NCBI RefSeq assembly: GCF_007997285.1
Contig: NZ_VORX01000001.1
Coordinates: 310,001-374,000, forward strand
DNA: 64,000 nt
From: Gelidibacter salicanalis
GTDB taxonomy: Bacteria > Bacteroidota > Bacteroidia > Flavobacteriales > Flavobacteriaceae
Reading direction: 5' to 3'
Made by a program: the position numbers and the translations under genes. The notes beneath the pieces are model-generated. The model had not been told where the DNA came from. It saw nothing but the letters and a program-made list of their open reading frames with translations, and did no database searches. Positions within the stretch are counted from its first letter, which is position 1; each line of letters opens with the position of its first letter. Shown in pieces: positions 36,961-48,594 of this stretch.

Positions 36961-37521
36961 TTAAATATTTTTAAAAGTCATTTCTATAAAACCTTCTATC
37001 TCCTGCTCAGAATTCACACGTGTGGCCGCTGCTAAACCGTGTTTTGCCAAGAGTAAGAAATTGGCTTGTTTTAAAATAGTGGTCTCATCTTTGGTGGCAT
37101 CCATTTTTAGTTTTTCGATGAATGAAGTTTTCAGATGCTCCATAAACAGAGTCATTTGTTCATTGATTAAAGCATCTTCGCGCTCTGAAAATTCATAATA
37201 GGTATTGGTTATTAAACATCCTTTGAGCGTGCCTTCTTTACCTATACTAACAGAATCATAGAAAAACTGTTTAATGTCCGCAACACCCTTGTTCGCCGAA
37301 TTAAATTTTTCAAATATGGCGTTCACCTTGGTTTTGTAGGCCTTTATACTTTCGAGAAAAACACCATGTTTACTGCCAAAACTGGAGTAAATGGAGAATT
37401 TATTAATGCCCATTTCCTTCTCTAGCATTTGCATGGAAGTGTTTTCGTAACCATAGCGCCAAAAAAGATGCATTGCTTTTTCGATGACTTCATCTTCTAA
37501 ATATTCTTTTTTTCGTGCCAT
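36961..37521 (-). CDS. TetR/AcrR-family transcriptional regulator
   Basis: The 186-residue protein has an N-terminal TetR helix-turn-helix (about 8-52: DEVIEKAMHLFWRYGYENTSMQMLEKEMGINKFSIYSSF split across helices 1-3). A divergent helical ligand domain follows, containing GCLITNTYYEFS. The KEYLEDEVIEKAMHLFWRYGYE type is close to regulators of reactive-compound responses. It lies upstream of the AhpD-like and DsbA-like genes on the same strand (154 bp gap) and is probably their repressor as well as its own. A palindrome sits 24 bp upstream of its start. Confidence 0.9.
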   Translation of the reverse strand: MARKKEYLEDEVIEKAMHLFWRYGYENTSMQMLEKEMGINKFSIYSSFGSKHGVFLESIKAYKTKVNAIFEKFNSANKGVADIKQFFYDSVSIGKEGTLKGCLITNTYYEFSEREDALINEQMTLFMEHLKTSFIEKLKMDATKDETTILKQANFLLLAKHGLAAATRVNSEQEIEGFIEMTFKNI

Positions 37522-37544
37522 TGGTTTTTGATTCTAGCACAAAA

Positions 37545-37560
37545 CTAAACGATTGGTTAG
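37545..37560. promoter_or_regulatory. Putative TetR operator
   Basis: CTAAACGATTGGTTAG is an imperfect palindrome with CTAA/TTAG ends, 24 bp upstream of the TetR start codon. Position and size fit autoregulation. No second copy was found in front of the AhpD-like gene. Confidence 0.45.
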
Positions 37561-37783
37561 AAACAAAAAAAGAATAAACAAAGTTTTACTGTTTTCCTAT
37601 CGTTCCTATGTCTCTTAGGGGGGATTAGAGTTTGTTTGATCAATGGCTAGGACCGCTAGTAGTATTGATTAGTTAACTGTTATAGCGCTCATGAAGTATG
37701 GTTTTACTAAATATTAAATCATAAATTTCAAGTTTATAAAACCATAAAACAGTAATTTCGCGCGTAAATAATTATGACATTCA

Positions 37784-38545
37784 ATGACGGATTTTAAACC
37801 TATTATTAAGGTTCTTGAAGAGGCTTATGAAATCCCACATTTGCAGGCTACCAGAAAAATATCTGCGTTGTTGCCTTACAATTACTATGAAACGGATAAA
37901 CATTTCCCTGTGCTGTACTTGCAGGATGGGCAAAATTTGTTTAACCCCATGTCTCCTTTTGGCGATTGGGCTATAGATCAGTCGTTGGCAAAACTGGCTG
38001 AGCAGGGCATGAGTGATATTATTGTTATTGCTATAGACCATGGAGAAGACGAGCGTATCAGTGAGTATTTGCCGTATTACCATCCGAGATATGGTGAAGG
38101 GAAAGGCAATTTCTACATTCAGTTTATCATTGAAAAATTAATTCCTTACATTAACAGTAATTATAGGACGCTGCCTGATTTTCAAAATACGGGCATTGGT
38201 GGTAGTTCGTTGGGAGGGCTGATCAGCCTACATGCGGGATTGTCAAATCCGGGTGTTTTTGGTAAAATGATGATCTTTTCGCCAAGTCTGTGGATTGCGA
38301 AAACAATTTTCAATCAAACGGAGTCTTTTCAGCCTTTACAAAAGTCTAAAATTTATTTGTATTCTGGAGGTAATGAAAGTGCAGAACATTTGCCAAACGC
38401 TCAGAAATTGGAAGCCATTTTTAGAGAAAAAATGGTAGAGAATCATGCGATAGAGTTCCATTTTTCAGTCAATGAAATAGGAAAGCATGCCGAAATTTAT
38501 TGGAAACATGAGTTTCCAAAAGCTGTCAAATGGCTTTACTTTTAA
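37784..38545 (+). CDS. Alpha/beta-hydrolase esterase (Fes/esterase-D-like)
   Basis: The 253-residue protein is an alpha/beta hydrolase of the putative esterase group. It has VLYLQDGQNLF, a nucleophile elbow GGSSLGGLISL (Ser near 140), an acid region VNEIGKHAE with the His near 238, and FSPSLWIAK. No signal peptide is seen. It lies 10 bp before the M17 aminopeptidase gene and in one run with the ATP-grasp gene, forming the plus-strand half of the amidoligase island. Substrate unknown; carboxyl esters or peptide esters are plausible from context. Confidence 0.85.
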   Translation: MTDFKPIIKVLEEAYEIPHLQATRKISALLPYNYYETDKHFPVLYLQDGQNLFNPMSPFGDWAIDQSLAKLAEQGMSDIIVIAIDHGEDERISEYLPYYHPRYGEGKGNFYIQFIIEKLIPYINSNYRTLPDFQNTGIGGSSLGGLISLHAGLSNPGVFGKMMIFSPSLWIAKTIFNQTESFQPLQKSKIYLYSGGNESAEHLPNAQKLEAIFREKMVENHAIEFHFSVNEIGKHAEIYWKHEFPKAVKWLYF

Positions 38546-38554
38546 TTCGATATT

Positions 38555-39967
38555 ATGATTTTTAAACACATTACCCAACTCAATATCCATCAAGATGTCA
38601 TAGTGCCTTGTCGTAAAGGGCAGTTAGACCATCTTAGTCAGTATACCACTATTAAAACTCCAGATTTTGATGGCGAATTTTCAACCGTTCAAATGCTATA
38701 TGGTGCAGAAGGCAATAGAGTGTATTTGCTAGGACTAGGTGAGGAGAGGGATGCCGTTAAAATTGATGACGCTTATAGAAAACTTAGTTTCGATTATAAA
38801 AAATATTGGAAAGAACCCGTTCAAATTATCACAGAAGGTTTTTCTGATGCTGAACTTCGCAAAGTGGTGATTGGATTAGAAATGTCGGCTTATAACATAG
38901 GCACTTTCAAATCTAAAAAAGAACAGGAAGGCCCAATTACCTTTGAAATTGTCAATTCCCAAGACGTGACCGCTCTTCTCGAAGAATCTCAAGCGATTGG
39001 CGCAACCATTAACAGAATTAAAACTTTAGTAGATGCACCGGCCAATCAAAAAACTCCTGAGTTTTTAGGGCAGTGGGCTCAAGCCTCTGCGCATGATGCT
39101 AATTATACGTGCACAGTGTTGCACAAAAAGGAACTTGAAGCACAAGGTTTTCACGCCGTTATGGCTGTAGGGCAAGGCAGTGTGAATCCGCCAGTGGTTA
39201 TTGTAACTCAATATATGCCCAAAGAAGGTGCGCCCGTAGATATCGGTTTGGTAGGTAAAGGCATCACCTTTGATACGGGTGGTTTGTCAATTAAGCCTTC
39301 AACCAATCTTCATTATATGAAAAGCGATATGGGTGGCGCTGCTGTAGTGCTAGGCGTTGTAGAGTTGGTGGCAAAACTGAAACTTAACGTCAATGTTATT
39401 GGGGTGGTAGCTTCTGCAGAAAATGCGGTAGATAGTAATAGTTACCGTCCAGGGGATGTCATTAACAGTTATTCTGGAAAAACCATTGAAATTATTGATA
39501 CGGATGCTGAAGGCCGCCTAGTCTTAGCAGATGGTTTGAATTATATTATCAAGGAATTTCACCCCAATCAAGTCATTGATCTTGCCACGTTGACCGGAAG
39601 TGTGGTACAAACTCTGGGCTATTCGGCTGCGGGGATGTTTACTAACAATACCGAGATGGCTCAGAATCTTTCAAAAATAGGTTTCGAAATTAATGAACGG
39701 GTTTGGCCTTTACCTTTATTTGCCGATTTTGATAGTGATTTGGATAGTGATATTGCGGACCTCAGAAACTTTAGCGGGAAACCGATTGCCGGTGCAACCA
39801 CCGCAGCCAAGTTTTTAGAAGCATTTACAGAAGAGCATCCAGCATGGATGCATTTGGATATTGCGGGTGTATCGTTTGGCGACTCTAAGTATGCTAAAAT
39901 GAAATGTGCAAGTGGCTATGGTGTACAATTAATGGTAGATTATATCAAATCTATTTCTGAGAACTAA
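38555..39967 (+). CDS. pepA: Leucyl aminopeptidase, M17 family
   Basis: The 470-residue protein has the M17 C-terminal catalytic domain with the two-metal motifs VGKGITFDTGGLSIKP (Lys and Asp), MKSDMGGAAVV and DTDAEGRLVLADGL. The N-terminal domain (about 1-150) is the usual divergent macro-like part. It removes N-terminal residues from peptides; some M17 enzymes also process Cys-Gly or glutathione-derived peptides. It lies 10 bp after the esterase. Being flanked by peptide-bond-forming ligases raises the chance that it handles the product or a precursor of that pathway. Confidence 0.94.
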   Translation: MIFKHITQLNIHQDVIVPCRKGQLDHLSQYTTIKTPDFDGEFSTVQMLYGAEGNRVYLLGLGEERDAVKIDDAYRKLSFDYKKYWKEPVQIITEGFSDAELRKVVIGLEMSAYNIGTFKSKKEQEGPITFEIVNSQDVTALLEESQAIGATINRIKTLVDAPANQKTPEFLGQWAQASAHDANYTCTVLHKKELEAQGFHAVMAVGQGSVNPPVVIVTQYMPKEGAPVDIGLVGKGITFDTGGLSIKPSTNLHYMKSDMGGAAVVLGVVELVAKLKLNVNVIGVVASAENAVDSNSYRPGDVINSYSGKTIEIIDTDAEGRLVLADGLNYIIKEFHPNQVIDLATLTGSVVQTLGYSAAGMFTNNTEMAQNLSKIGFEINERVWPLPLFADFDSDLDSDIADLRNFSGKPIAGATTAAKFLEAFTEEHPAWMHLDIAGVSFGDSKYAKMKCASGYGVQLMVDYIKSISEN

Positions 39968-40082
39968 GGGTTTATTTTGTATTTTGTGTGTGAATTAAGC
40001 TGAGGCAACCGTTGCTTCAGTGAATGATTTTGAGTAGGGAAGCTTATTTGAAATCCTTTATCATTAAAAATCCCACCAAAAT

Positions 40083-41285
40083 ATGTCTACAAAACGACCA
40101 CTCAATTTTCTATGTGTTACCACGTATCATAAAGGCGCCGATTTTATAAAAAGCTGTAAAGCTGAAGGCAATAATGTGTATTTATTGACCAAAAAGAAAT
40201 TGGAACACGAGGTGTGGCCTTGGGAAGCCATAGATGATGTGTTTTACGTGGAAAATTGGAATCAGAATGATGTCACCAAAGGCATTGCTTATAAATTCAG
40301 AACAATAAAATTCGATCGTTTTGTGGCCTTAGATGATTTTGATGTCGAAAAAGTAGCGCTTTTACGAGAACACTTCAGAATGCCTGGTATGGGGAGAACC
40401 ACCTCACACTATTTTAGAGATAAATTGGCCATGCGTATGAAAGCGCAGGAGGAAGGTGTTAATGTGCCCAAGTTTACAGCGCTTTTTAATGACGTCGACA
40501 TTAATGCTTATGCGGATAATGTGAGTCCGCCCTGGTTCTTAAAACCGCGTTTGGAAGCTTCTGCAACCGGTATTAAGAAGATCAACAATCGCGAAGAACT
40601 TTGGCAAATAGTCAACGCGCTTCAAGACGAACGGGACAATTATTTAATTGAAAAGTTTGCCCCAGGCGATGTGTACCATGTAGACAGTTTGACGCTTGAC
40701 GGAAAAGTCATATTTTCCAGAGTGAGCAAATATTTAGATACGCCTTTCGAAGTGGCCCATGGCGGCGGGGTGTTCAGATCTGCCACTTGTAAAATTGGCA
40801 CAAAAATAGAAAAGGCATTGACCAAAATGAATGCTGAGGTCATGACCGCTTTCGGAATGCAATTTGGTGCTTCGCATACTGAGTTTATCGAATCTAAAGA
40901 CACAGGCGAGTTGTTTTTTCTGGAAACATCTTCACGAGTAGGTGGGGCCAATTTAGCGGAAATGGTAGAGTTGGCATCGGGCATTAACCTTTGGGGAGAA
41001 TGGGCGCGTATTGAAAGTGCAACCTTAAGACATGAAGTGTATACCTTACCTAAGGTCAAAAATCAGTATGCGGGGATTGTGGTGTCCTTAAGTAAATTTG
41101 AGAATCCAGATATGTCCAGTTTTAATGACCCTGAAATTGCCTGGCGAATGCATAAAAAATGGCACATCGGGATGATTGTAGTTTCTGAGAGTGCTGATCG
41201 AGTGATGGAATTGTTGGATAGTTATACCAAACGTATTGCGACAGATTTCCATGCGAGTATTCCGGCACCGGATAAGAGTTTGTGA
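40083..41285 (+). CDS. ATP-grasp ligase
   Basis: The 400-residue protein has a pre-ATP-grasp domain (FLCVTTYHKGADFIKSC) and a full ATP-grasp fold. Seen are HYFRDKLAMRMKAQEEGVNVPKF, the nucleotide Lys in WFLKPRLEASATGIKKI, YLIEKFAPGDVYHVDS and the metal-site FFLETSSRVGGANL near 285. Such enzymes join a carboxylate, activated as acyl phosphate, to an amine or thiol. The acceptor is unknown. It follows the M17 gene by 115 bp and faces the oppositely oriented ligase cluster across the repeat-filled spacer. Confidence 0.9.
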   Translation: MSTKRPLNFLCVTTYHKGADFIKSCKAEGNNVYLLTKKKLEHEVWPWEAIDDVFYVENWNQNDVTKGIAYKFRTIKFDRFVALDDFDVEKVALLREHFRMPGMGRTTSHYFRDKLAMRMKAQEEGVNVPKFTALFNDVDINAYADNVSPPWFLKPRLEASATGIKKINNREELWQIVNALQDERDNYLIEKFAPGDVYHVDSLTLDGKVIFSRVSKYLDTPFEVAHGGGVFRSATCKIGTKIEKALTKMNAEVMTAFGMQFGASHTEFIESKDTGELFFLETSSRVGGANLAEMVELASGINLWGEWARIESATLRHEVYTLPKVKNQYAGIVVSLSKFENPDMSSFNDPEIAWRMHKKWHIGMIVVSESADRVMELLDSYTKRIATDFHASIPAPDKSL

Positions 41286-41296
41286 TTCAGAATATA

Positions 41297-41385
41297 GAAC
41301 TCTGATAACGCCGATCATTGATGATTTTCACTGATTTTTAAATAGAAATCTGCGAAAATCTGTTTGATCAGCGTCATCAACGTTC
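41297..41385 (-). repeat. Palindromic dispersed repeat, copy 1
   Basis: This 89-bp element shares a perfect 19-nt core (TTTTCGCAGATTTCTATTT, minus strand 41358-41340) and related ends with the copy at 42051-42130, in inverted orientation. Its right end runs into the toxin reading frame and supplies its last codons and stop. The GATCAGCG/AACGTT-rich ends are typical of REP-like elements in this phylum. Confidence 0.7.
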
Positions 41386-41571
41386 AAAGTAATGTTGTTT
41401 GTTTATTTCAGGAACGGCTTGTCCAGAATAAATCTGAGAATGTAGAATCTTCGTGCGTTTCTTGATTCTTATAACTTGAAGTTTAGCGTAGTTTTTAGAA
41501 TCTTTTGAAATGTAATCAAAAATAGCTCTTAAGTCTGCAACAGATTGATGAGTCCAATTTATTAGAACCAT
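41377..41571 (-). pseudogene. RelE/ParE-type toxin gene truncated by a repeat
   Basis: The 64-residue reading frame starts like a complete ParE toxin (INWTHQSVADLRAIFDYISKDS, then VIRIKKRTKIL, YSGQAVPEI). It breaks off at NKQHYFER, where the conserved IREL...YRI...H core should follow. Full toxins are about 95-100 residues. The last codons and stop come from the palindromic repeat at 41297-41385, and no remainder lies beyond it, since the ATP-grasp gene ends at 41285. The missing third contains the catalytic and gyrase-facing C-terminus, so the toxin is probably dead. It overlaps the antitoxin gene by 10 bp. Confidence 0.75.
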
Positions 41572-41741
41572 TTTTCTAGTTCAGTAGTTAAATCAGATTC
41601 AGAAACATAATTCCCACTTTCAGACTGTTGGTACCCGCTCTCTATTTTTTCAATTAGAATTAATCGCTCAATGAGTTCATCAATAGTAAATTCATCAGAT
41701 AAACTTTCGATTTGTTCTTTTAATTTAGTCTTTGTAATCAT
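41562..41741 (-). CDS. Antitoxin of the ParE-type module
   Basis: The 59-residue acidic protein (start MITKTKLKEQIESLSDEF, then TIDELIERLILIEKIE) has the small helical look of a type II antitoxin. It ends VSESDLTTELEKWF, the tail that usually wraps the toxin. It overlaps the toxin frame by 10 bp in the standard antitoxin-then-toxin order. I prefer ATG 41741; an upstream in-frame ATG at 41774 would add 11 unlikely residues reaching close to the inverted-repeat element. With the toxin broken, it is probably a relic. Confidence 0.7.
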   Translation of the reverse strand: MITKTKLKEQIESLSDEFTIDELIERLILIEKIESGYQQSESGNYVSESDLTTELEKWF

Positions 41742-41777
41742 CGCACAAGACTGAAATCTAATATACAGAATCATTAG

Positions 41778-41988
41778 TGTCCGATAAAAATAAATAATAA
41801 ATTAACAAACTCATTTAAAGCAAGGGACATTAGAAGATTTCCGAAATGAGACCTTGCATTTTAGAAACTGTTTCTACCGAGAGGGAATGTGCTATTTTAA
41901 TTTAAATGATCGTTGTTTGTCAGTTAGTTGCAAACAAGTCTTAATTCTTTATTCTAACAGCGCAGCGGTCTTGATTCTTTATCGGACA
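41778..41988. mobile_element. 211-bp MITE-like element or IS remnant with 11-bp terminal inverted repeats
   Basis: TGTCCGATAAA (41778-41788) and TTTATCGGACA (41978-41988) are perfect inverted copies. The interior has no open frame. Near the right end there is an internal direct repeat: GTCTTAATTCTTTAT and GTCTTGATTCTTTAT. No clear target duplication flanks it. This fits a non-autonomous transposon or the joined ends of a deleted insertion sequence. Confidence 0.6.
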
Positions 41989-42050
41989 ACAATGATACAA
42001 AATTATTGATTTGGTCTACTTAATAAGGGAATTAACTTGGTAATCCCATA

Positions 42051-42130
42051 GAACGCTGATTTAGCTAATTTTCGCAGATTTCTATTTGTAATTCATTGAA
42101 AATCATAAACAATCAGCGTCCTCAGCGTTC
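42051..42130 (+). repeat. Palindromic dispersed repeat, copy 2
   Basis: This 80-bp element is bounded by perfect inverted ends GAACGCTGA (42051-42059) and TCAGCGTTC (42122-42130). It contains the 19-nt core TTTTCGCAGATTTCTATTT at 42069-42087, the inverted counterpart of copy 1. It lies just beyond the stop of the minus-strand ligase cluster. Confidence 0.75.
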
Positions 42131-42152
42131 AATCAACAGCGTTCCAACCATC

Positions 42153-43352
42153 TCAAGGCTCAAAAAAGCCTGTGCTGCCACCAACCCAAGTTTTATCCTT
42201 GTTGTATTTTACACCCACCATTTCGCCTTTACTCAGTCGCATCAAATTACTGACAATTTGAGTTTGATTCGTTTTGCTGTTATGGAGTAACATCATTCGG
42301 ATCTCACACTTTGCCGGTTCGTCCATGGTTTGGATGATTGGCGCATAAGCTACTTTTTCTTGTAATAGGTAATTCGATTTATCTTTAACAGCGTCAATCT
42401 TCGCTTGGTCTACATGTATTTCAACGCCAGCACCCGCAAAAGAGTAAAGCGGTTTTAAAACATAATTTTCTAAATCTGTCGGGATGTATTCGAGTTGGTC
42501 CAAGTAATAGGATTTTGGAACATAATCGCCTGTTAAAAGGGGCATTGTGTATTTGCTAATTCTGAAAAACCAATTCGGGTGTCCAATCCACTCTATATCC
42601 ACGGCGTCCTTGAAATCAAATTCCCGATCTAAATCTGGCCGTTGGTCCAACTCATCAAAAATGATGCGGTTATAAATCTTTAAGACTCGTATTTCTTCGC
42701 CATTACCGTCCACATAAAATAACTGCTTGCCTCTTTTAATCAATTTGGAAATGCACAACACTTTAATCCCCAACAACGCTTCCGTGGCATAAAAGTCGAT
42801 AGCTGTAGCCTGTTTTTCAGGCTCAATTTCTAAAAGAATCACTTGTTTGGGAGCGGTGTCTCCAACAATCTCGGTGCGTAACAATTCAAGATATTCCTCA
42901 GAAGTTATTCCGTTAAGGTGCTGTGAAAAATCAGCAGGGATGCCTTCATAATGTTTGCGATACATTCTGCCCATCAATTCCTGAAAAAAATAAAGGGACG
43001 GAAACCCCTGCAATTCGATCAGTTTTGGGGTGAGTTGTCCTTTTTCATCTAAACACACGCCAAAATCCAACTGCAAAAACTTTGCCTGTGCATCTTCATT
43101 AGGAACTCTCATCCGTTCATTGAAAAAAGCACCATCTGTGAGGTCTTTAAAATCAGGCTGATTAATCACTTTCATGATGTCCTCGCAAGCTTCGACCAAT
43201 TGCTGTTTTAATGCTTTTGGAATAAAAACCGGCGTTTCGGCAATTTTAAATTTAGGCGTATAATTGAATTGCGTATGGATATCAGCCAGCATGCCAGCGT
43301 ATTTTTCCACAGTATATTGGGCATTGAATGCTTGGCGTAATTTGGCGATCAT
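42153..43352 (-). CDS. ATP-grasp-like ligase resembling glutathionylspermidine synthase
   Basis: The 399-residue protein is not a textbook family member for me. The C-terminal half, HPNWFFRISKYTMPLL, then YVLKPLYSFAGAGVEI (nucleotide Lys plus glycine loop), then CEIRMMLL and MVGVKYNKDKTWVGG, follows the order of glutathionylspermidine-synthase-type ATP-grasp enzymes. An acidic PKLIELQGFPSLYFF motif comes earlier (about 113-127). It would form an amide with an amine or polyamine-like acceptor. I use ATG 43352, 4 bp after the amidotransferase stop. It is the last gene of the minus-strand operon. Confidence 0.7.
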   Translation of the reverse strand: MIAKLRQAFNAQYTVEKYAGMLADIHTQFNYTPKFKIAETPVFIPKALKQQLVEACEDIMKVINQPDFKDLTDGAFFNERMRVPNEDAQAKFLQLDFGVCLDEKGQLTPKLIELQGFPSLYFFQELMGRMYRKHYEGIPADFSQHLNGITSEEYLELLRTEIVGDTAPKQVILLEIEPEKQATAIDFYATEALLGIKVLCISKLIKRGKQLFYVDGNGEEIRVLKIYNRIIFDELDQRPDLDREFDFKDAVDIEWIGHPNWFFRISKYTMPLLTGDYVPKSYYLDQLEYIPTDLENYVLKPLYSFAGAGVEIHVDQAKIDAVKDKSNYLLQEKVAYAPIIQTMDEPAKCEIRMMLLHNSKTNQTQIVSNLMRLSKGEMVGVKYNKDKTWVGGSTGFFEP

Positions 43353-43356
43353 AAAG

Positions 43357-44175
43357 TTATGCAATTAGTTCTGGTGACAAGTGCTTAATAGCGCTTGCTA
43401 TATAATTTGGTAGAATGATTTTATGAGTTCTAATGATCTTATCCGGATCGTCCATTTTATCCATCATGTCATCATATTTTTCTTCGCCAAAATTGGCGAT
43501 GACTTTGTGTTTATTGGCATCGGCAAGAAAATGGGCACGCATCCCGATAGGATCAGCTTCCGGATGAAATTGTGTACCTACAAATTCCTTAGAAAAACGT
43601 ACCGCCATAATGGCGCGCTCATAACTGACGTGGCTGCGAAGCTTTTCTAAACTTAAAATGGATGCGCCTTGTTCTTTAAAGACTTTCAGTCGGGGTTGTA
43701 CCAATTGCCAATCCCGAGAATCTACAGCATAAAACGGATCGTCCAAACCTTCTAAAAGTGAGTCTTTTAACCCTGCTTTAGTTTTGTGAATGGGTAAAAC
43801 CCCAAAAGAAGTACTGCGTCTTGGTCGCATTTCTCCTAATTGAAAATAATCGCATACCACTTGAAAGGAGTAGCAAATGAAGAACATGTATTTCTTTTGA
43901 TCTGAGGACCTTTTATTGAAATCCCACAATTCTTGAACCAAATTCAGATAGGGAATGCGCCAAGGTCCATCCTCAAGCGGACTGTCCGGTCCGCCGCTCG
44001 AAATATAAATATCGTAAGAGCTGTCTGGTAATTCATCAGCACCTCTCACATTAAATATGGTATAATCAACGTCATCTTCAAAGCCTCTCACAATATCTGC
44101 AATACAACGCAAGCCTTGGTTGGGTTGGTTGTTGTTCATATCGAGAATGGCTACTTTTAGCTTGTCTTTAGGCAT
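43357..44175 (-). CDS. Class I glutamine amidotransferase-like protein
   Basis: The 272-residue protein has the class I GATase fold with the oxyanion-side motif YISSGGPDSPLEDGP, nucleophile FFICYSFQVV (Cys near 107) and the catalytic His-Glu in GTQFHPEADP (about 200). The nucleophile elbow is CYSFQ rather than the usual CLGHQ. No synthetase domain is fused. It may supply ammonia to a neighbouring ligase, or act as a gamma-glutamyl hydrolase like PuuD. Gaps of 10 bp to the COG2170 ligase and 4 bp to the next ligase indicate one operon. Confidence 0.87.
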   Translation of the reverse strand: MPKDKLKVAILDMNNNQPNQGLRCIADIVRGFEDDVDYTIFNVRGADELPDSSYDIYISSGGPDSPLEDGPWRIPYLNLVQELWDFNKRSSDQKKYMFFICYSFQVVCDYFQLGEMRPRRSTSFGVLPIHKTKAGLKDSLLEGLDDPFYAVDSRDWQLVQPRLKVFKEQGASILSLEKLRSHVSYERAIMAVRFSKEFVGTQFHPEADPIGMRAHFLADANKHKVIANFGEEKYDDMMDKMDDPDKIIRTHKIILPNYIASAIKHLSPELIA

Positions 44176-44185
44176 GTATAATGTT

Positions 44186-45280
44186 CTAAGTTCCTAAAAC
44201 GGTCTGTGCAATAATATAATCGACCACCTTGGTCAAATCCTTGGTGTCTTCATAAACGGCAATTTGCCGATCAGCTCCAGTTCCGTTAACTAACATAGTC
44301 TTAATATGTTCTATTTCCTTACGCGATCCGAGTTCATCTACCACATCATCAACAAAATCAAGTAATTCGAGCATTAATTCTTTGGTAGGCACTTCAATTT
44401 CCTTTCCAAAATCAATCATCTTGCCTTCAAGTCCGTATCTGCTGGCACGCCATTTATTCTCATTTATTAAGGCGCGATGGTAGAGCATAAAATTAAGATT
44501 TTGAGTCCTTAATTTATAAAGTTTAGCAACCAAAGCTTGAATTAGGGCCGCGATGCTCAGAGTTTCCTCAATGGTCATCGGTACGTCACAAATCCGTACT
44601 TCCACCGTTGGAAAAACGGGGTGGATACGAATGTCCCACCAAATTTTTTTCGGGTTGTCAATACACTTTGTTTTGATCAGGATGTCAATGTAATGCTCGT
44701 ATTCCGCCACGGTTTGAAAAACGCCAGGAATTCCGGTTCGTGGAAATTTGTCAAATATCTTTGAACGAAATGATTTAAACCCTGTATTCCGGCCTTCCCA
44801 AAAAGGCGAATTGGTAGACAATGCATATAAATGGGGTAAAAAATAACGCATGGCATTGGTTAAATGCAAGGCCAACTGTTTGTCTTCAATACCAATATGC
44901 ACATGCAGTCCGAAAATTAAATTGGAGCGGGCAGTATCTTGAAGTTCATTAACAATCTCGTCGTACCGAGGATTTGGCGTCATCAATTGTGTTTCCCATT
45001 TGGTAAATGGATGGGTGCCAGCCGCGGCAATTTTAAATCCTAAGGTGCCGGCAATGTCTGATATGGATTTTCGTAAATGGGTTAGCTCCGTTCGTGCTTC
45101 GCTAATGTCCTTACAGATATTCGTACCTACCTCCACAACAGCCTGGTGCATCTCAGCTTTTACTTGCTCATTTAAAAGTTTGGCCGCTTCTGATACAATT
45201 TGCTGATCATGCGATATCAATTCTCGTGTTTTCGGACAGATGACTTGGTATTCTTCTTCAATGCCTAATGTGAATTTCAT
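44186..45280 (-). CDS. Carboxylate-amine ligase (COG2170, GCS2/YbdK family)
   Basis: The 364-residue protein starts with the GCS2 signature FTLGIEEEYQVICPKTREL and has FGLHVHIGIEDKQLA (about 120-134) and an RICDVPMTIEETLSIAALIQ stretch. It belongs to the glutamine-synthetase-like amidoligases related to plant-type glutamate-cysteine ligase. Members activate a gamma-carboxylate and join it to an amine such as Cys. With two ATP-grasp-type ligases, an amidotransferase and an esterase in the same operon, it probably makes the first amide of a peptide-like compound. The actual amino acids are unknown. Confidence 0.92.
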   Translation of the reverse strand: MKFTLGIEEEYQVICPKTRELISHDQQIVSEAAKLLNEQVKAEMHQAVVEVGTNICKDISEARTELTHLRKSISDIAGTLGFKIAAAGTHPFTKWETQLMTPNPRYDEIVNELQDTARSNLIFGLHVHIGIEDKQLALHLTNAMRYFLPHLYALSTNSPFWEGRNTGFKSFRSKIFDKFPRTGIPGVFQTVAEYEHYIDILIKTKCIDNPKKIWWDIRIHPVFPTVEVRICDVPMTIEETLSIAALIQALVAKLYKLRTQNLNFMLYHRALINENKWRASRYGLEGKMIDFGKEIEVPTKELMLELLDFVDDVVDELGSRKEIEHIKTMLVNGTGADRQIAVYEDTKDLTKVVDYIIAQTVLGT

Positions 45281-45354
45281 AAGATACAGTTGGTTTTGAT
45301 TACGATTACGACACTTTCTTTTGTTTACAGATCTTTCAAACGATCAAGCAAAAG

Positions 45355-46317
45355 TTATTTATATGTGGTTTTTTTACCAGTAATTTGATCTTTTACAAAA
45401 GTGCCCCAGGTGAGATTCATTTTATCTTTCTTAAATTTCTTGGCCTTCGCAATAGCCATGTTGGCTGCGTTTTCCACAATCCAATCAAAATTGTCCTGAC
45501 CTACGGAATTGACATCGGCATCAGGTGCTGGATTACAGAAATCGATGGCATAAGGGATGCCGTCTCTTACGGCAAATTCTATCGTGTTAAAATCGTAGCC
45601 TAAGGCTTTATTAAGTCGGATACAGTATTTTTTAATCAAATCTAATAGCTCTTGTTTTATCGGTGGCCCGTCAATGACATAGCGTAAATGGTGCGGATTT
45701 CGGGGTTCATACTGCATAATATGCACATTGTCCGTGTCTAACACGTAACATCTGAAATACTCGGTGAAATTGATTTCTTCCTGCAACATCATCACCAGGT
45801 TTTCGGTTTCGCCGTGTTTTTTCCACAAATCTTGCGAATTTTCAACCCGGTATACACTTTTCCAGCCGCCACCATCATGAGGTTTCATATAGGCAGGAAA
45901 GCCAATGGTATCGAACATATGTTCCCAAGCAAAAGGGAATTTCATATTTCTAAAAGAGTTTTCATCTGTATCAGGCGGACGGTGTGAAGACGGTAGAATG
46001 AATGTTTTTGGTACCGGAACACCCACTTTTTCTGCCAAGGCATTATTGAAGAATTTTTCGTCTGCACTCCACCAAAACGGATTGTTGATGACTGCGGTCC
46101 CTGAAATGGCCGCGTTCTTTAAATAAGCGCGATAAAACGGAACGTCCTGAGATATTCTGTCAATAATTACCGCATAATCCGTAGGTTTTGCCTGTTCTAC
46201 CATGTCGATAGAAACAGCTTCCGCCATAACGTTTTTCACTTTCTTCTCATTAACGCGATCTATAAATGCCTGTGGAAAGGTGTTTTCTTTTCCGAATAGG
46301 ATGCCAATTTTTTTCAT
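45355..46317 (-). CDS. ATP-grasp ligase
   Basis: The 320-residue protein starts at ATG 46317 (MKKIGILFGKENTFPQAF). A longer in-frame start at 46512 lies inside the upstream esterase gene and is rejected. The ATP-grasp fold shows DEKFFNNALAEKVGVPVPKTF, the nucleotide Lys in YMKPHDGGGWKSVYRV and MMLQEEINFTEYFRCYVL. The metal-binding Asn/Asp site is in FNTIEFAVRDGIPYAIDFCNPAPDADV. It is similar in build to glutathione-synthetase/RimK-type ligases. It lies 34 bp after the esterase and 74 bp before the COG2170 ligase. Confidence 0.9.
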   Translation of the reverse strand: MKKIGILFGKENTFPQAFIDRVNEKKVKNVMAEAVSIDMVEQAKPTDYAVIIDRISQDVPFYRAYLKNAAISGTAVINNPFWWSADEKFFNNALAEKVGVPVPKTFILPSSHRPPDTDENSFRNMKFPFAWEHMFDTIGFPAYMKPHDGGGWKSVYRVENSQDLWKKHGETENLVMMLQEEINFTEYFRCYVLDTDNVHIMQYEPRNPHHLRYVIDGPPIKQELLDLIKKYCIRLNKALGYDFNTIEFAVRDGIPYAIDFCNPAPDADVNSVGQDNFDWIVENAANMAIAKAKKFKKDKMNLTWGTFVKDQITGKKTTYK

Positions 46318-46351
46318 ATGTATAAATTTTTGGTGGTGTATCTTAATTAGT

Positions 46352-47056
46352 TTAAAGTTTTGAAAGGTATTCCGGGAACATATCGCGCCATAGGGGCCAA
46401 TCGTGTTTTGCCCATTTTCGGACATCATACCAAAAGGGAATATTTTTATCGCGAAGTATTTGGGCCATTTTTTGGTTCGCTTCCAAACAAATATCCCACT
46501 CGCCAACGCCAAGGATGATCTTCATCTTCCATAAATCGGGATGGTTATTTCCAGGTAAGAAATCGATGGGATTATTGAAAAACACGTTGTTATCATAATG
46601 CCCGTCTACAAACGATTTAATATCAAAAGCGCCACTCATACTAAACATATGGCTTACTTTTTCAGGATGCTTAAACGCAAAGTTTGAGGCTTGATAACCC
46701 CCAAAACTCGGTCCAGCTACAGCAACCTTGGACAGTCCTTTGTCCTGACAAATAGGGTTAACGATTTCATTCATAATAAACTGATCGTACCATTCATGAT
46801 TTTTTGCCCGTTGGGATGGATGAATTTTTTTATTGTACCAACTCAGTTCGTTAATCCCATCAGGGCAATAAATTTGGACTTTACCTTGCTCTACAAACCA
46901 TCGGACAGATTCTACAAGCTTCATGTCTTTACATTCATTGTGTTTCCCCATGGTGGTTGGAAATAATATGACAGGATACCCGGCGTGTCCAAAAACGAGC
47001 ATTTCTATATCCTTACTAAGGGTTGGGGAGTACCATGTGTGGTGTTGTTCTTTCAA
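46352..47056 (-). CDS. Alpha/beta-hydrolase esterase, first gene of the ligase operon
   Basis: The 234-residue protein is a putative esterase of the esterase-D/Fes group. It shows GYPVILFPTTMGKHNE near the start, the nucleophile elbow VAGPSFGGYQASNF (Ser near 116) and a C-terminal His in WAKHDWPLW. No signal peptide is seen. It is the second esterase of the island, and the pair may be functionally related. As the first gene of the minus-strand operon it could remove a protecting or activating ester from substrate or product. Confidence 0.87.
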   Translation of the reverse strand: MKEQHHTWYSPTLSKDIEMLVFGHAGYPVILFPTTMGKHNECKDMKLVESVRWFVEQGKVQIYCPDGINELSWYNKKIHPSQRAKNHEWYDQFIMNEIVNPICQDKGLSKVAVAGPSFGGYQASNFAFKHPEKVSHMFSMSGAFDIKSFVDGHYDNNVFFNNPIDFLPGNNHPDLWKMKIILGVGEWDICLEANQKMAQILRDKNIPFWYDVRKWAKHDWPLWRDMFPEYLSKL

Positions 47057-47266
47057 TTGTTAGGTGCTTTAGAGTGTAAGGCGTTTTGATAAAACTATGT
47101 GTGAACGTAGGTCAGGCATAGGTTGAACTTGTGTTATTGTAAATTGCAACAGATACAACAATATACTTTTTTTAATTATAAATTGCCATATAATACGGTG
47201 AGATTCTTAAATTTTTGTAGAAAACGGATTAAAGTTGGAATAGCAGTGGTGTTTATCTCATTTGTA

Positions 47267-47407
47267 ATGATAAAAGTTAGGATGTTATCAGCGCTACAAC
47301 AAGGTTTCTTGCTGGTTGGTAGCGAGAACTCGCAACTTCAAAAAAAATTAAGCACCTATAATGATGAGGAGTTTATCTTGGCCAGAGAGCAGTTAAAAAA
47401 GTTTTAA
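47267..47407 (+). CDS. Possible 46-residue protein, doubtful
   Basis: From ATG 47267 the frame reads MIKVRMLSALQQGFLLVGSE and continues with a charged helix ending EQLKKF. The composition is protein-like, but there is no recognised family, no clear promoter, and it lies between two minus-strand genes. A longer TTG-started version (47123) adds a Cys/aromatic-rich stretch that looks like noise. Confidence 0.3.
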   Translation: MIKVRMLSALQQGFLLVGSENSQLQKKLSTYNDEEFILAREQLKKF

Positions 47408-47421
47408 ATAAGCTGGAATAG

Positions 47422-48594
47422 TTACTCATCAATCCTGTTTTCGTCAAACGCGGAAGGAAGCAATTTTGGAATGAACTTGACAAATAAAGGTAGTAACAGC
47501 GCCCCGCCAGGCAACATAAAGATGGCCAAACTTGGTATGGACTTAAAAATGTCCATTAATTGTTCCTGAACTTTTTTGTGCTCCGCGGGCGTCAAATCTC
47601 TTTTAGTAGATTTTGTTAATAGCACCATCAATTCTTTACTTTCTTTGAGTTCTTGTAATAAGCGTTTGCTGTTTCTGCTGATGAGCTTCATGACCATCTT
47701 GCTCGAGTTATCATAAAAACTCTTCACAAAATTTTTAGAGCCTAAGGCCGCAATCTTACTTTTATTTGAGCTATAAAACAAGTCAATATCAACTATAGAT
47801 TGTGTCAAGACCGCTAATTCCAGATCTAGATGCTCGCAAAATTGGGCTAAAAAAAGGTTTTCACTTTTATCAATCACATTATCCGTCCAAGAAGCCATAC
47901 AGGCAATATCAATGATGTACCGTTTTTCTAAAGAGGTTTGTAACGTATGAATAGCTTCACCATAATCTAAAGGGCCATTAGAATGGTAGCGTCTGGATAG
48001 TTTAAAAAGTTTGGTTAAACTGTCATCATACTTGGTTTTTTGCAGTTTCGATTCAAAAACTTCTATGACAATAGTCTCAATAGATGTTTCAATGTTTTGT
48101 AAATACCTATCCGAGACGGTATTGGTGTCCAAAAATTTCTGATAGGCCAACACATCTACAAACAAAAGGGCATTGGTGATGAAATAATTAAAATTCTTGG
48201 TAAACACATTGTCATCAATATGGACGCGTTTTTCAATAAGGTCTTCCAAAAGCGCCGCAGATTTATTCTTAATTAAAAGCAATTGAAAAATGGAGGTTTT
48301 ACTGACCGTGATGGTACTATAAAAACTAATAACCGTATCAATAAATTTTTCTTCGGAAGGGTTTCGCTTATAAAAATAGAAAAATGCCAGTATTAAATTG
48401 ACTTTACACAACTCTTCGTCGGTTAAGTCTTTTTTGGGAATAGCATTGCTAACCACATCCACATTACTGCCATAAATAAATCCACACTGCTTAAGTTCTT
48501 GATAAAAGTGTTCAAGAGTGTTGTTTAGAAAGGTTTCATCTCCAGAAACTTCTTTTAGTAATTTTTTGATCCAGCCAGAGGCAGAGGGATTCAT
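47422..48594 (-). CDS. LETM1-related protein
   Basis: The 390-residue protein is largely helical. It ends with a LETM1-like segment (about 330-380): KRDLTPAEHKKVQEQLMDIF, then SIPSLAIFMLPGGALLLPLF. This matches the ribosome-binding/membrane-proximal motif of mitochondrial LETM1, which acts in K+/H+ exchange. Bacteroidota relatives are annotated as LETM1-related, some as biofilm-associated. A single hydrophobic segment near the end suggests membrane association. A K+/H+ antiporter lies 3.4 kb away, but they are not in one operon. Confidence 0.83.
   Translation of the reverse strand: MNPSASGWIKKLLKEVSGDETFLNNTLEHFYQELKQCGFIYGSNVDVVSNAIPKKDLTDEELCKVNLILAFFYFYKRNPSEEKFIDTVISFYSTITVSKTSIFQLLLIKNKSAALLEDLIEKRVHIDDNVFTKNFNYFITNALLFVDVLAYQKFLDTNTVSDRYLQNIETSIETIVIEVFESKLQKTKYDDSLTKLFKLSRRYHSNGPLDYGEAIHTLQTSLEKRYIIDIACMASWTDNVIDKSENLFLAQFCEHLDLELAVLTQSIVDIDLFYSSNKSKIAALGSKNFVKSFYDNSSKMVMKLISRNSKRLLQELKESKELMVLLTKSTKRDLTPAEHKKVQEQLMDIFKSIPSLAIFMLPGGALLLPLFVKFIPKLLPSAFDENRIDE

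Follow-up and report, generated by a model that had tools for sequence, protein, structure and literature searches.

Eight intact genes, all with open frames, lie at positions 37784-47056 of the window, that is, the whole 64,000-nucleotide stretch of Gelidibacter salicanalis DNA that was analyzed. They form two convergent runs, three genes on the plus strand and five on the minus strand (Table 1), with the strands and coordinates that a sequence-only reading of this DNA had given for its eight named genes. In the plus run, an esterase gene (EST1) is followed by genes for an M17 peptidase and an ATP-grasp ligase (ATPG3). The minus run comprises, in order of transcription, an esterase (EST2), a RimK-like ATP-grasp (RIMK), a COG2170 ligase (GCS2), a class I GATase-fold protein (GAT), and a GSP-like ligase (GSP). 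For the GSP-like gene, the conserved ATG at 43352 is the most likely start, in preference to the TTG at 43364, as judged from an alignment of 23 sequences in which M5 was invariant. With this start, the gaps in the minus run are 34, 74, 10, and 4 bp, matching the 4-74 bp read earlier for this operon. Counts of promoter-like sites (22 vs 32.8 expected) and terminator-like sites (12 vs 9.2 expected) were uninformative, no regulatory RNA matched at gathering score in 37000-48000, and none of the eight proteins matched PADLOC anti-phage defence models at E 0.001.

Table 1. Genes of the two convergent runs, with predicted products and the matches on which the predictions rest.
Gene and predicted product	Position	Strand	Evidence
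EST1, alpha/beta-hydrolase, esterase family PF00756	37784..38545	+	106.8 bits, cut-off 22; adjoins M17 and ATPG3 in relatives
M17 leucyl-aminopeptidase-type peptidase	38555..39967	+	PF00883, 371.7 bits
ATPG3, ATP-grasp ligase nearest L-amino acid (dipeptide) ligases	40083..41285	+	ATP-grasp_4, 30.9 bits, cut-off 27; 4wd3, E 1.3e-24
GSP-like ligase, glutathione synthetase/glutathionylspermidine synthetase/YgiC fold	42153..43352	-	Pfam GSP_synth PF03738, 15.9 bits, below gathering score 29.3
GAT, class I GATase fold, Cys101-His204-Glu206, probable gamma-glutamyl peptidase	43357..44175	-	PF00117, 32.7 bits, cut-off 22.8
GCS2, COG2170 (YbdK-type) carboxylate-amine ligase, GhExE motif	44186..45280	-	PF04107, 218.5 bits, cut-off 21; PRK13515, 532.6, cut-off 371
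RIMK, RimK/R2K-like ATP-grasp ligase	45355..46317	-	Below cut-off of every family listed (Pfam, NCBIfam)
EST2, alpha/beta-hydrolase, esterase, invariant Ser117-Asp188-His218	46352..47056	-	34.5 bits, cut-off 22

Only two NCBIfam models were reached by any of the ligases, namely PRK13515 (generic carboxylate-amine ligase) and TIGR02050 (YbdK subfamily), and no ligase reached the cut-off of a model for an ordinary glutathione or housekeeping ligase. In the COG2170 ligase, G6, E8, and E10 of the GhExE motif, reported as the motif of carboxylate-amine/ammonia ligases (PMC2588565), were invariant in 20 sequences. The same protein matched the YbdK structure 1r8g with an E value of 6.3e-65; E. coli YbdK is reported to ligate Glu and Cys slowly (PMC9563957). 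The GSP-like protein showed a whole-length structural match to the glutathione synthetase/Gsp synthetase fold. RIMK scored 35.6 bits against the RimK alpha-L-glutamate ligase model TIGR00768 (cut-off 143.4) and 23.6 bits against the R2K_2 ATP-grasp model PF18299 (gathering score 26.2), below both thresholds. The solved relatives nearest to ATPG3 by sequence were 4wd3 and, at E 6.2e-13, 3vot; 4WD3 is RizA (PMC6920838).

Among loci found with the RimK-like protein alone, 67 of 80 kept the order RimK-like>COG2170>GATase>GSP-like on a single strand, in a span of no more than 8 kb, these being the best 80 of at least 585 confirmed relatives, with several genera sampled many times. The neighborhood at 37784-47056 is therefore not due to chance. 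The GSP-like protein alone as query found 18 relatives, 16 of them with a complete EST2-RIMK-GCS2-GAT-GSP core in their stretch; all eight genes were on one strand in 11 of the 18, which are loci of another family. Over 80 loci with the complete set of five core genes, mean pairwise identity was highest for RIMK (0.72, compared with 0.50-0.65 for the other four). Where a reference contained a stop, the alignment row was dropped (L079 for GSP and RIMK, L060 for RIMK, L130 for GCS2), and four RIMK rows were trimmed at their 3' ends. Outside the set, no family was seen in over 20 of the 98 loci. Small recurring families, for example F11 (115 aa) and F17 (110 aa), were confined to a few related genera.

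We compared the distribution of the genes in 198 Bacteroidota genomes, using Fisher tests and 5000 shuffles stratified by family. A RimK-like match was present in 72 genomes, including three distant ones (G125, G197, G262; 32-43% identity) that were still counted. For ATPG3, 43 of 65 genomes were kept, all with E below 1e-100, and genomes with weak matches only were dropped; EST2 and M17 were counted at E 1e-30 and 1e-20, respectively, and the marginal matches of GSP in G158 and of GAT in G164 and G197, with E values between about 4e-4 and 7e-4, were left out. The ten pairs among RIMK, GSP, GCS2, GAT, and ATPG3 gave Fisher p values of 2.7e-12 to 2.4e-37, and the observed co-occurrence was reached by 0 of 5000 within-family shuffles for each pair. 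Likewise, 0 of 5000 shuffles reached the observed value for EST2 with RIMK (69 genomes) or with ATPG3 (43 genomes), an EST2 relative being present in 69 of the 72 RIMK genomes. As a control, cyanophycin synthetase (CphA) was not associated with RIMK, GSP, GAT, or GCS2 (reached by 1391 to 1432 of 5000 shuffles). Partners often lay on different contigs or were separated by over 50 kb (RIMK-ATPG3 in 33/43 genomes, RIMK-GSP in 23/58, RIMK-GAT in 15/49, RIMK-GCS2 in 15/58). These homologue counts show that four putative ATP-dependent carboxylate-amine ligase-type enzymes and their dedicated hydrolases are co-inherited whether or not their genes are linked. Co-inheritance even of unlinked genes therefore points to an uncharacterized pathway for a small peptide-like compound.

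Parts of the set are exchangeable between lineages, like for like. In all 11 genomes that lack GSP and bear the GATase, a circularly permuted ATP-grasp (CP_ATPgrasp_2) replaces the GSP-like gene. The replacing ligase is no simple ortholog, because the GSP-like and CP_ATPgrasp_2 profiles matched only weakly in hhalign (probability about 5); the RimK-like and ATPG3 profiles also matched weakly (about 5). Likewise, four loci, drawn from at least two families, carry an M29 metallopeptidase in the position of the GATase.

The latter exchange bears on the function of GAT, which had been read as a class I glutamine amidotransferase. The PF00117 match and the Cys-His-Glu triad stand, the three residues being invariant in 21 sequences. 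The predicted model (mean pLDDT 92.3) ranked in fold searches with gamma-glutamyl peptidase 1, with homoserine O-succinyltransferase and stand-alone GATases tying; a family missing from the structure lists of matches is not thereby ruled out. Because an M29 peptidase can take the place of GAT and the GAT model ranks with gamma-glutamyl peptidase 1, GAT probably acts as a gamma-glutamyl peptidase rather than as an ammonia donor. We consider it unlikely, though worth keeping in view, that GAT is a true glutamine amidotransferase feeding ammonia to the GSP-like ligase, the pair forming a terminal carboxamide. The PF00117 score above cut-off and the stand-alone GATases among the best fold matches would fit this alternative, as would the adjacency of GAT and GSP, with a 4 bp gap here and no other member of the set found within the L023 and L024 stretches. 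RIMK, GSP, and GCS2 occur without GAT in 20 of 198 genomes, where a substitute ammonia donor is possible.

Taken together, we think it fairly probable that the eight genes encode a single Bacteroidota pathway, dispensable and patchy in its inheritance, for the non-ribosomal synthesis and processing of a small peptide-like compound. It would proceed by successive ligation, including a gamma-glutamyl step, followed by hydrolytic trimming. The COG2170 enzyme would make a gamma-glutamyl-type amide, the GSP-like enzyme and the RimK-like ATP-grasp would add further amine or amino-acid units, and ATPG3, resembling L-amino-acid ligases, would supply or add an alpha-linked unit. The GATase-fold protein (or M29) may remove the gamma-glutamyl group or trim the product, and the esterases may act on an acyl or ester group by hydrolysis or transfer. 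The gamma-glutamyl moiety could either remain in the final compound, as in glutathione, or serve as a protecting group that is later removed, as it does in the Puu pathway. The pathway proposed from the sequence alone thus survives in outline, in that homologues co-occur strongly elsewhere, the two halves are not distributed independently of each other, and none of the ligases reaches an NCBIfam cut-off for glutathione synthesis or housekeeping; the roles it assigned to the amidotransferase and the M17 peptidase are revised. More tentatively, the set may represent a phylum-wide second glutathione-like gamma-glutamyl peptide system beside bacillithiol, with four ligases, lineage-wise swaps for unrelated enzymes that share their chemistry, and its own gamma-glutamyl peptidase and acyl-hydrolases, a possibility to which we give clearly less credence. 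The set does not replace bacillithiol, because the bacillithiol gene bshC was found in 196 of 198 genomes (192 above its cut-off), and a replacement low-molecular-weight thiol was rejected on this ground.

The ligases might instead modify a protein or other macromolecule, as in RimK-like tagging. R2K relatives have been proposed as protein modifiers (PMC4431377), and the higher conservation of RIMK is what a fixed macromolecular partner would demand. However, no linked target stands out, because recurrence in over 20 of the 98 loci is confined to set members, and four ligases of different folds with exchangeable peptidases would better suit stepwise small-molecule chemistry. We therefore regard a macromolecular substrate as rather improbable.

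The M17 peptidase had been taken as a part of the pathway; no second M17 gene was found in the G. salicanalis genome. The peptidase accompanies ATPG3 in 43 of 43 genomes and follows only this gene. It is not a general member, being present in 134 of 198 genomes and showing no within-family association with RIMK (the observed value is reached by 601 of 5000 shuffles). This wide distribution, together with loci read in families f29, f41, and f47 that have no M17 within four genes of ATPG3, would suit two unrelated operons converging by accident, the plus-strand half serving ordinary peptide catabolism. However, RIMK is present in each of the 43 genomes with ATPG3, the two genes being distant from each other or on separate contigs in 33 of these, and all eight genes are co-directional in 11 loci, so that this improbable alternative is already disfavoured. 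Graspetide pathways, in which ATP-grasps act on a ribosomal precursor peptide, typically combine ATP-grasp ligases with peptidases as seen here, but we hold such a pathway to be highly improbable, since the ligase operon on the minus strand of the window contains no precursor gene, its 4-74 bp gaps being too short for one, and F11 and F17 (with frames of at least 50 aa called) do not extend beyond their few genera.

Two further links were rejected. In eight loci of one genus, genes named by eye as CphA, cyanophycinase, and isoaspartyl peptidase adjoin the cluster. When CphA was then searched as TIGR02068, it was above cut-off in 21 of 198 genomes and was not co-inherited with RIMK, which occurred in 10 of these 21 vs 62 of the 177 others (1425 of 5000 shuffles); for ATPG3-CphA, 156 of 5000 shuffles reached the observed value. 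Spread by plasmids was rejected because plasmid records held no RimK-like match and the 204 records matching ATPG3 were all below 60% identity (26-31% for the ten listed).

About a third of the sampled Bacteroidota genomes (72/198) thus seem to devote several ligases and hydrolases to a compound unnamed in the literature found. The portions of open-licence full texts available to us hold no description of this gene set, which the 2009 amidoligase survey may list. Co-inheritance delimits the genes involved, and the exchanges seen in nature yield predictions on the chemistry of each enzyme; therefore, metabolomics of deletions could reveal a new peptide metabolite or cofactor.

Among known systems, the L-amino acid ligases (RizA, BacD, BL00235) share the ATP-grasp_4 match and include the nearest solved relatives of ATPG3, whereas ATPG3 sits in a multi-ligase set and its dipeptide activity is putative. 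Compared with glutathione biosynthesis by type 2 GCL and eukaryote-type glutathione synthetase, the set has two further ATP-grasps and dedicated peptidases and esterases, and identity is low (10-15% in the best 18 rows). Unlike the glutathionylspermidine, YgiC, and YjfC acid-amine ligases, the GSP-like protein is below the GSP_synth cut-off and has no fused amidase domain, its partner hydrolase being the GATase-fold or M29 protein. Relative to gamma-glutamyl peptidase 1 (GGP1) and C26-type hydrolases, GAT shows 13-16% identity, homoserine O-succinyltransferase and stand-alone GATases tie in the fold ranking, and its peptidase activity is predicted. Finally, Iyer, Aravind and colleagues reportedly described in 2009 amidoligase neighborhoods that combine several ligase folds with peptidases and were predicted to make peptide-like metabolites. 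The present set is of the same general kind, and the slot exchanges and the co-inheritance of unlinked genes come from the present analysis.

Using the glutathionylspermidine-synthase-like ligase gene GSP alone as a query, we searched 119 genomes of the order and found a match in 19, the own genome included. In 16 of the 18 other loci, GSP stood together with genes for an esterase (EST2), a RimK/R2K-like ATP-grasp (RIMK), the COG2170 ligase (GCS2) and a GATase-fold protein, probably a gamma-glutamyl peptidase (GAT), as EST2-RIMK-GCS2-GAT-GSP; only GAT-GSP was present within the stretch read in the other two. Eleven of the 18, all from two genera of family f5, carried eight co-directional genes, EST1-M17-ATPG3-EST2-RIMK-GCS2-GAT-GSP, in which EST1 is a second esterase, M17 a peptidase and ATPG3 an L-amino-acid-ligase-like ATP-grasp; a twelfth locus, truncated by the contig start, contained seven of the eight. 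Genes for cyanophycin synthetase, cyanophycinase and isoaspartyl peptidase adjoined the eight-gene operon in one genus (L027-L030, L032, L034, L036, L038).

RIMK alone, searched against a collection of 84,980 species, yielded at least 585 confirmed relatives. Among the best 80 of these, RIMK>GCS2>GAT>GSP lay on one strand within 8 kb in 67 loci, and the stretch read contained EST2 in 71, ATPG3 in 19 and M17 in 17, contig ends being the cause of some missing members. No gene family outside the set occurred in more than 20 of 98 clustered loci. Pairwise distances of the five core genes (RIMK, GCS2, GAT, GSP, EST2) correlated at 0.85-0.93 across a second set of 80 loci, in which all five were present, as expected of co-inherited genes, with common species history also contributing. 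One typical Bacteroidota run, EST2-RIMK-GCS2-GAT-GSP, was on a contig labelled as a Bifidobacterium breve MAG (L118), which is probably mis-binned. A histidine ammonia-lyase-like gene, named by eye, directly followed RIMK in L127 and L128 (family f37).

Features between and beside the halves of the island, and a fusion in a relative
Feature	Sequence	Position	Strand	Details
RelE/ParE-like toxin-type frame (64 aa) and antitoxin-like frame (70 aa)	window	41377-41774	-	named by eye; between the two halves
81-nt inverted repeat, first copy	window	41294-41374		79%; one side of the inter-half space
81-nt inverted repeat, second copy	window	42053-42133		79%; other side of the inter-half space
LETM1-related biofilm-associated protein	window	47422-48594	-	NF040639, 485.9 bits; upstream of EST2
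Symporter-ligase fusion	L174	4636-7239		867-aa single frame; sodium:solute symporter (PF00474) fused to GSP-like ligase

The toxin frame looks truncated. A 20-nt motif inside the repeat occurs in the window only at the two repeat sites, with up to three mismatches allowed, and the repeat resembles an insertion or a dispersed element. The LETM1-related gene lies outside the conserved set.

We then counted gene presence in 198 Bacteroidota genomes after removal of weak-match rows: RIMK was found in 72, GSP in 60, GCS2 in 62, GAT in 50, ATPG3 in 43 and EST2 in 77, and the first five were all absent from 122. All ten pairs among these five were associated (Fisher p ≤2.7e-12), and none of 5000 within-family shuffles matched the observed overlap of any pair. 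EST2 was tested with RIMK (69 genomes in common, RIMK only in 3, EST2 only in 8) and with ATPG3 (43 genomes together), each giving 0/5000 shuffles. The control gene for cyanophycin synthetase, CphA, put through the same procedure, had no association with RIMK, GSP, GAT or GCS2 (1391 to 1432 of 5000 shuffles); its overlap with ATPG3 was reached in 156/5000, one informative family being behind this result.

Co-inheritance holds even where the genes sit apart on the chromosome. Of the 43 genomes with both RIMK and ATPG3, 33 had the two more than 50 kb apart or on different contigs; the corresponding figures for separation from RIMK were 23 of 58 for GSP, 15 of 49 for GAT and 15 of 58 for GCS2. 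Strict separation, on the same contig and beyond 50 kb, was seen in 7, 4, 1 and 2 genomes, respectively. For ATPG3 at least, assembly fragmentation is a minor cause of separation, because 19 of 20 unlinked loci fetched had the complete 15 kb around the gene. Of the 69 genomes with both RIMK and EST2, 34 had the two genes no more than 8 kb apart; many of the remaining EST2 matches show 29-40% identity and may be paralogues. An amidohydrolase gene directly adjoined unlinked GSP in L175, L177 and L178 (families f37 and f40; PF07969 tested for L177), and a relative of it sat beside GAT in L169. An M24 peptidase gene lay within four genes of unlinked GAT in family f29 (L159, L161, L162, L163; PF00557 tested for L159).

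Unlike the other members, M17 was present in 134 of the 198 genomes. Overall it was associated with RIMK (Fisher p 0.011), but within families the two were not associated (601/5000 shuffles). M17 was found in all 43 ATPG3 genomes (0/5000 shuffles); when only the 49 genomes related at class level or more closely were counted, M17 was in 12 of 12 with ATPG3 versus 6 of 37 others (1/5000).

RIMK and GAT occurred without GSP in 11 of the 198 genomes. All eleven loci were read, and each had a circularly permuted ATP-grasp between RIMK and GAT; of two such proteins tested against PF14403 (cut-off 32), that of L119 scored 37.3 bits and that of L124 fell below at 20.9. A third kind of esterase followed GAT in GSP-less loci of families f31, f34 and f44. 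In four loci, the gene between GCS2 and GSP encoded not GAT but an M29 metallopeptidase, assigned by PF02073 for L102, with the proteins of L079, L182 and L130 62-98% identical. No GAT turned up in these four stretches, or anywhere in the two genomes that were searched in full, G168 (source of L130) and G202 (source of L182). The L182 and L102 proteins were 98% identical, with that of L079 at 89%, and we therefore count two or more independent exchanges, in families f32 and f43. Thus, an ATP-grasp was swapped for an ATP-grasp of different architecture, and a GATase-fold protein for a peptidase.

We found no description of this gene set in open-licence literature. Multi-ligase amidoligase neighbourhoods are, as a general kind, reportedly known from prediction in a 2009 survey. 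The general kind was thus already predicted, and the new evidence is the unlinked co-inheritance together with the slot exchanges.
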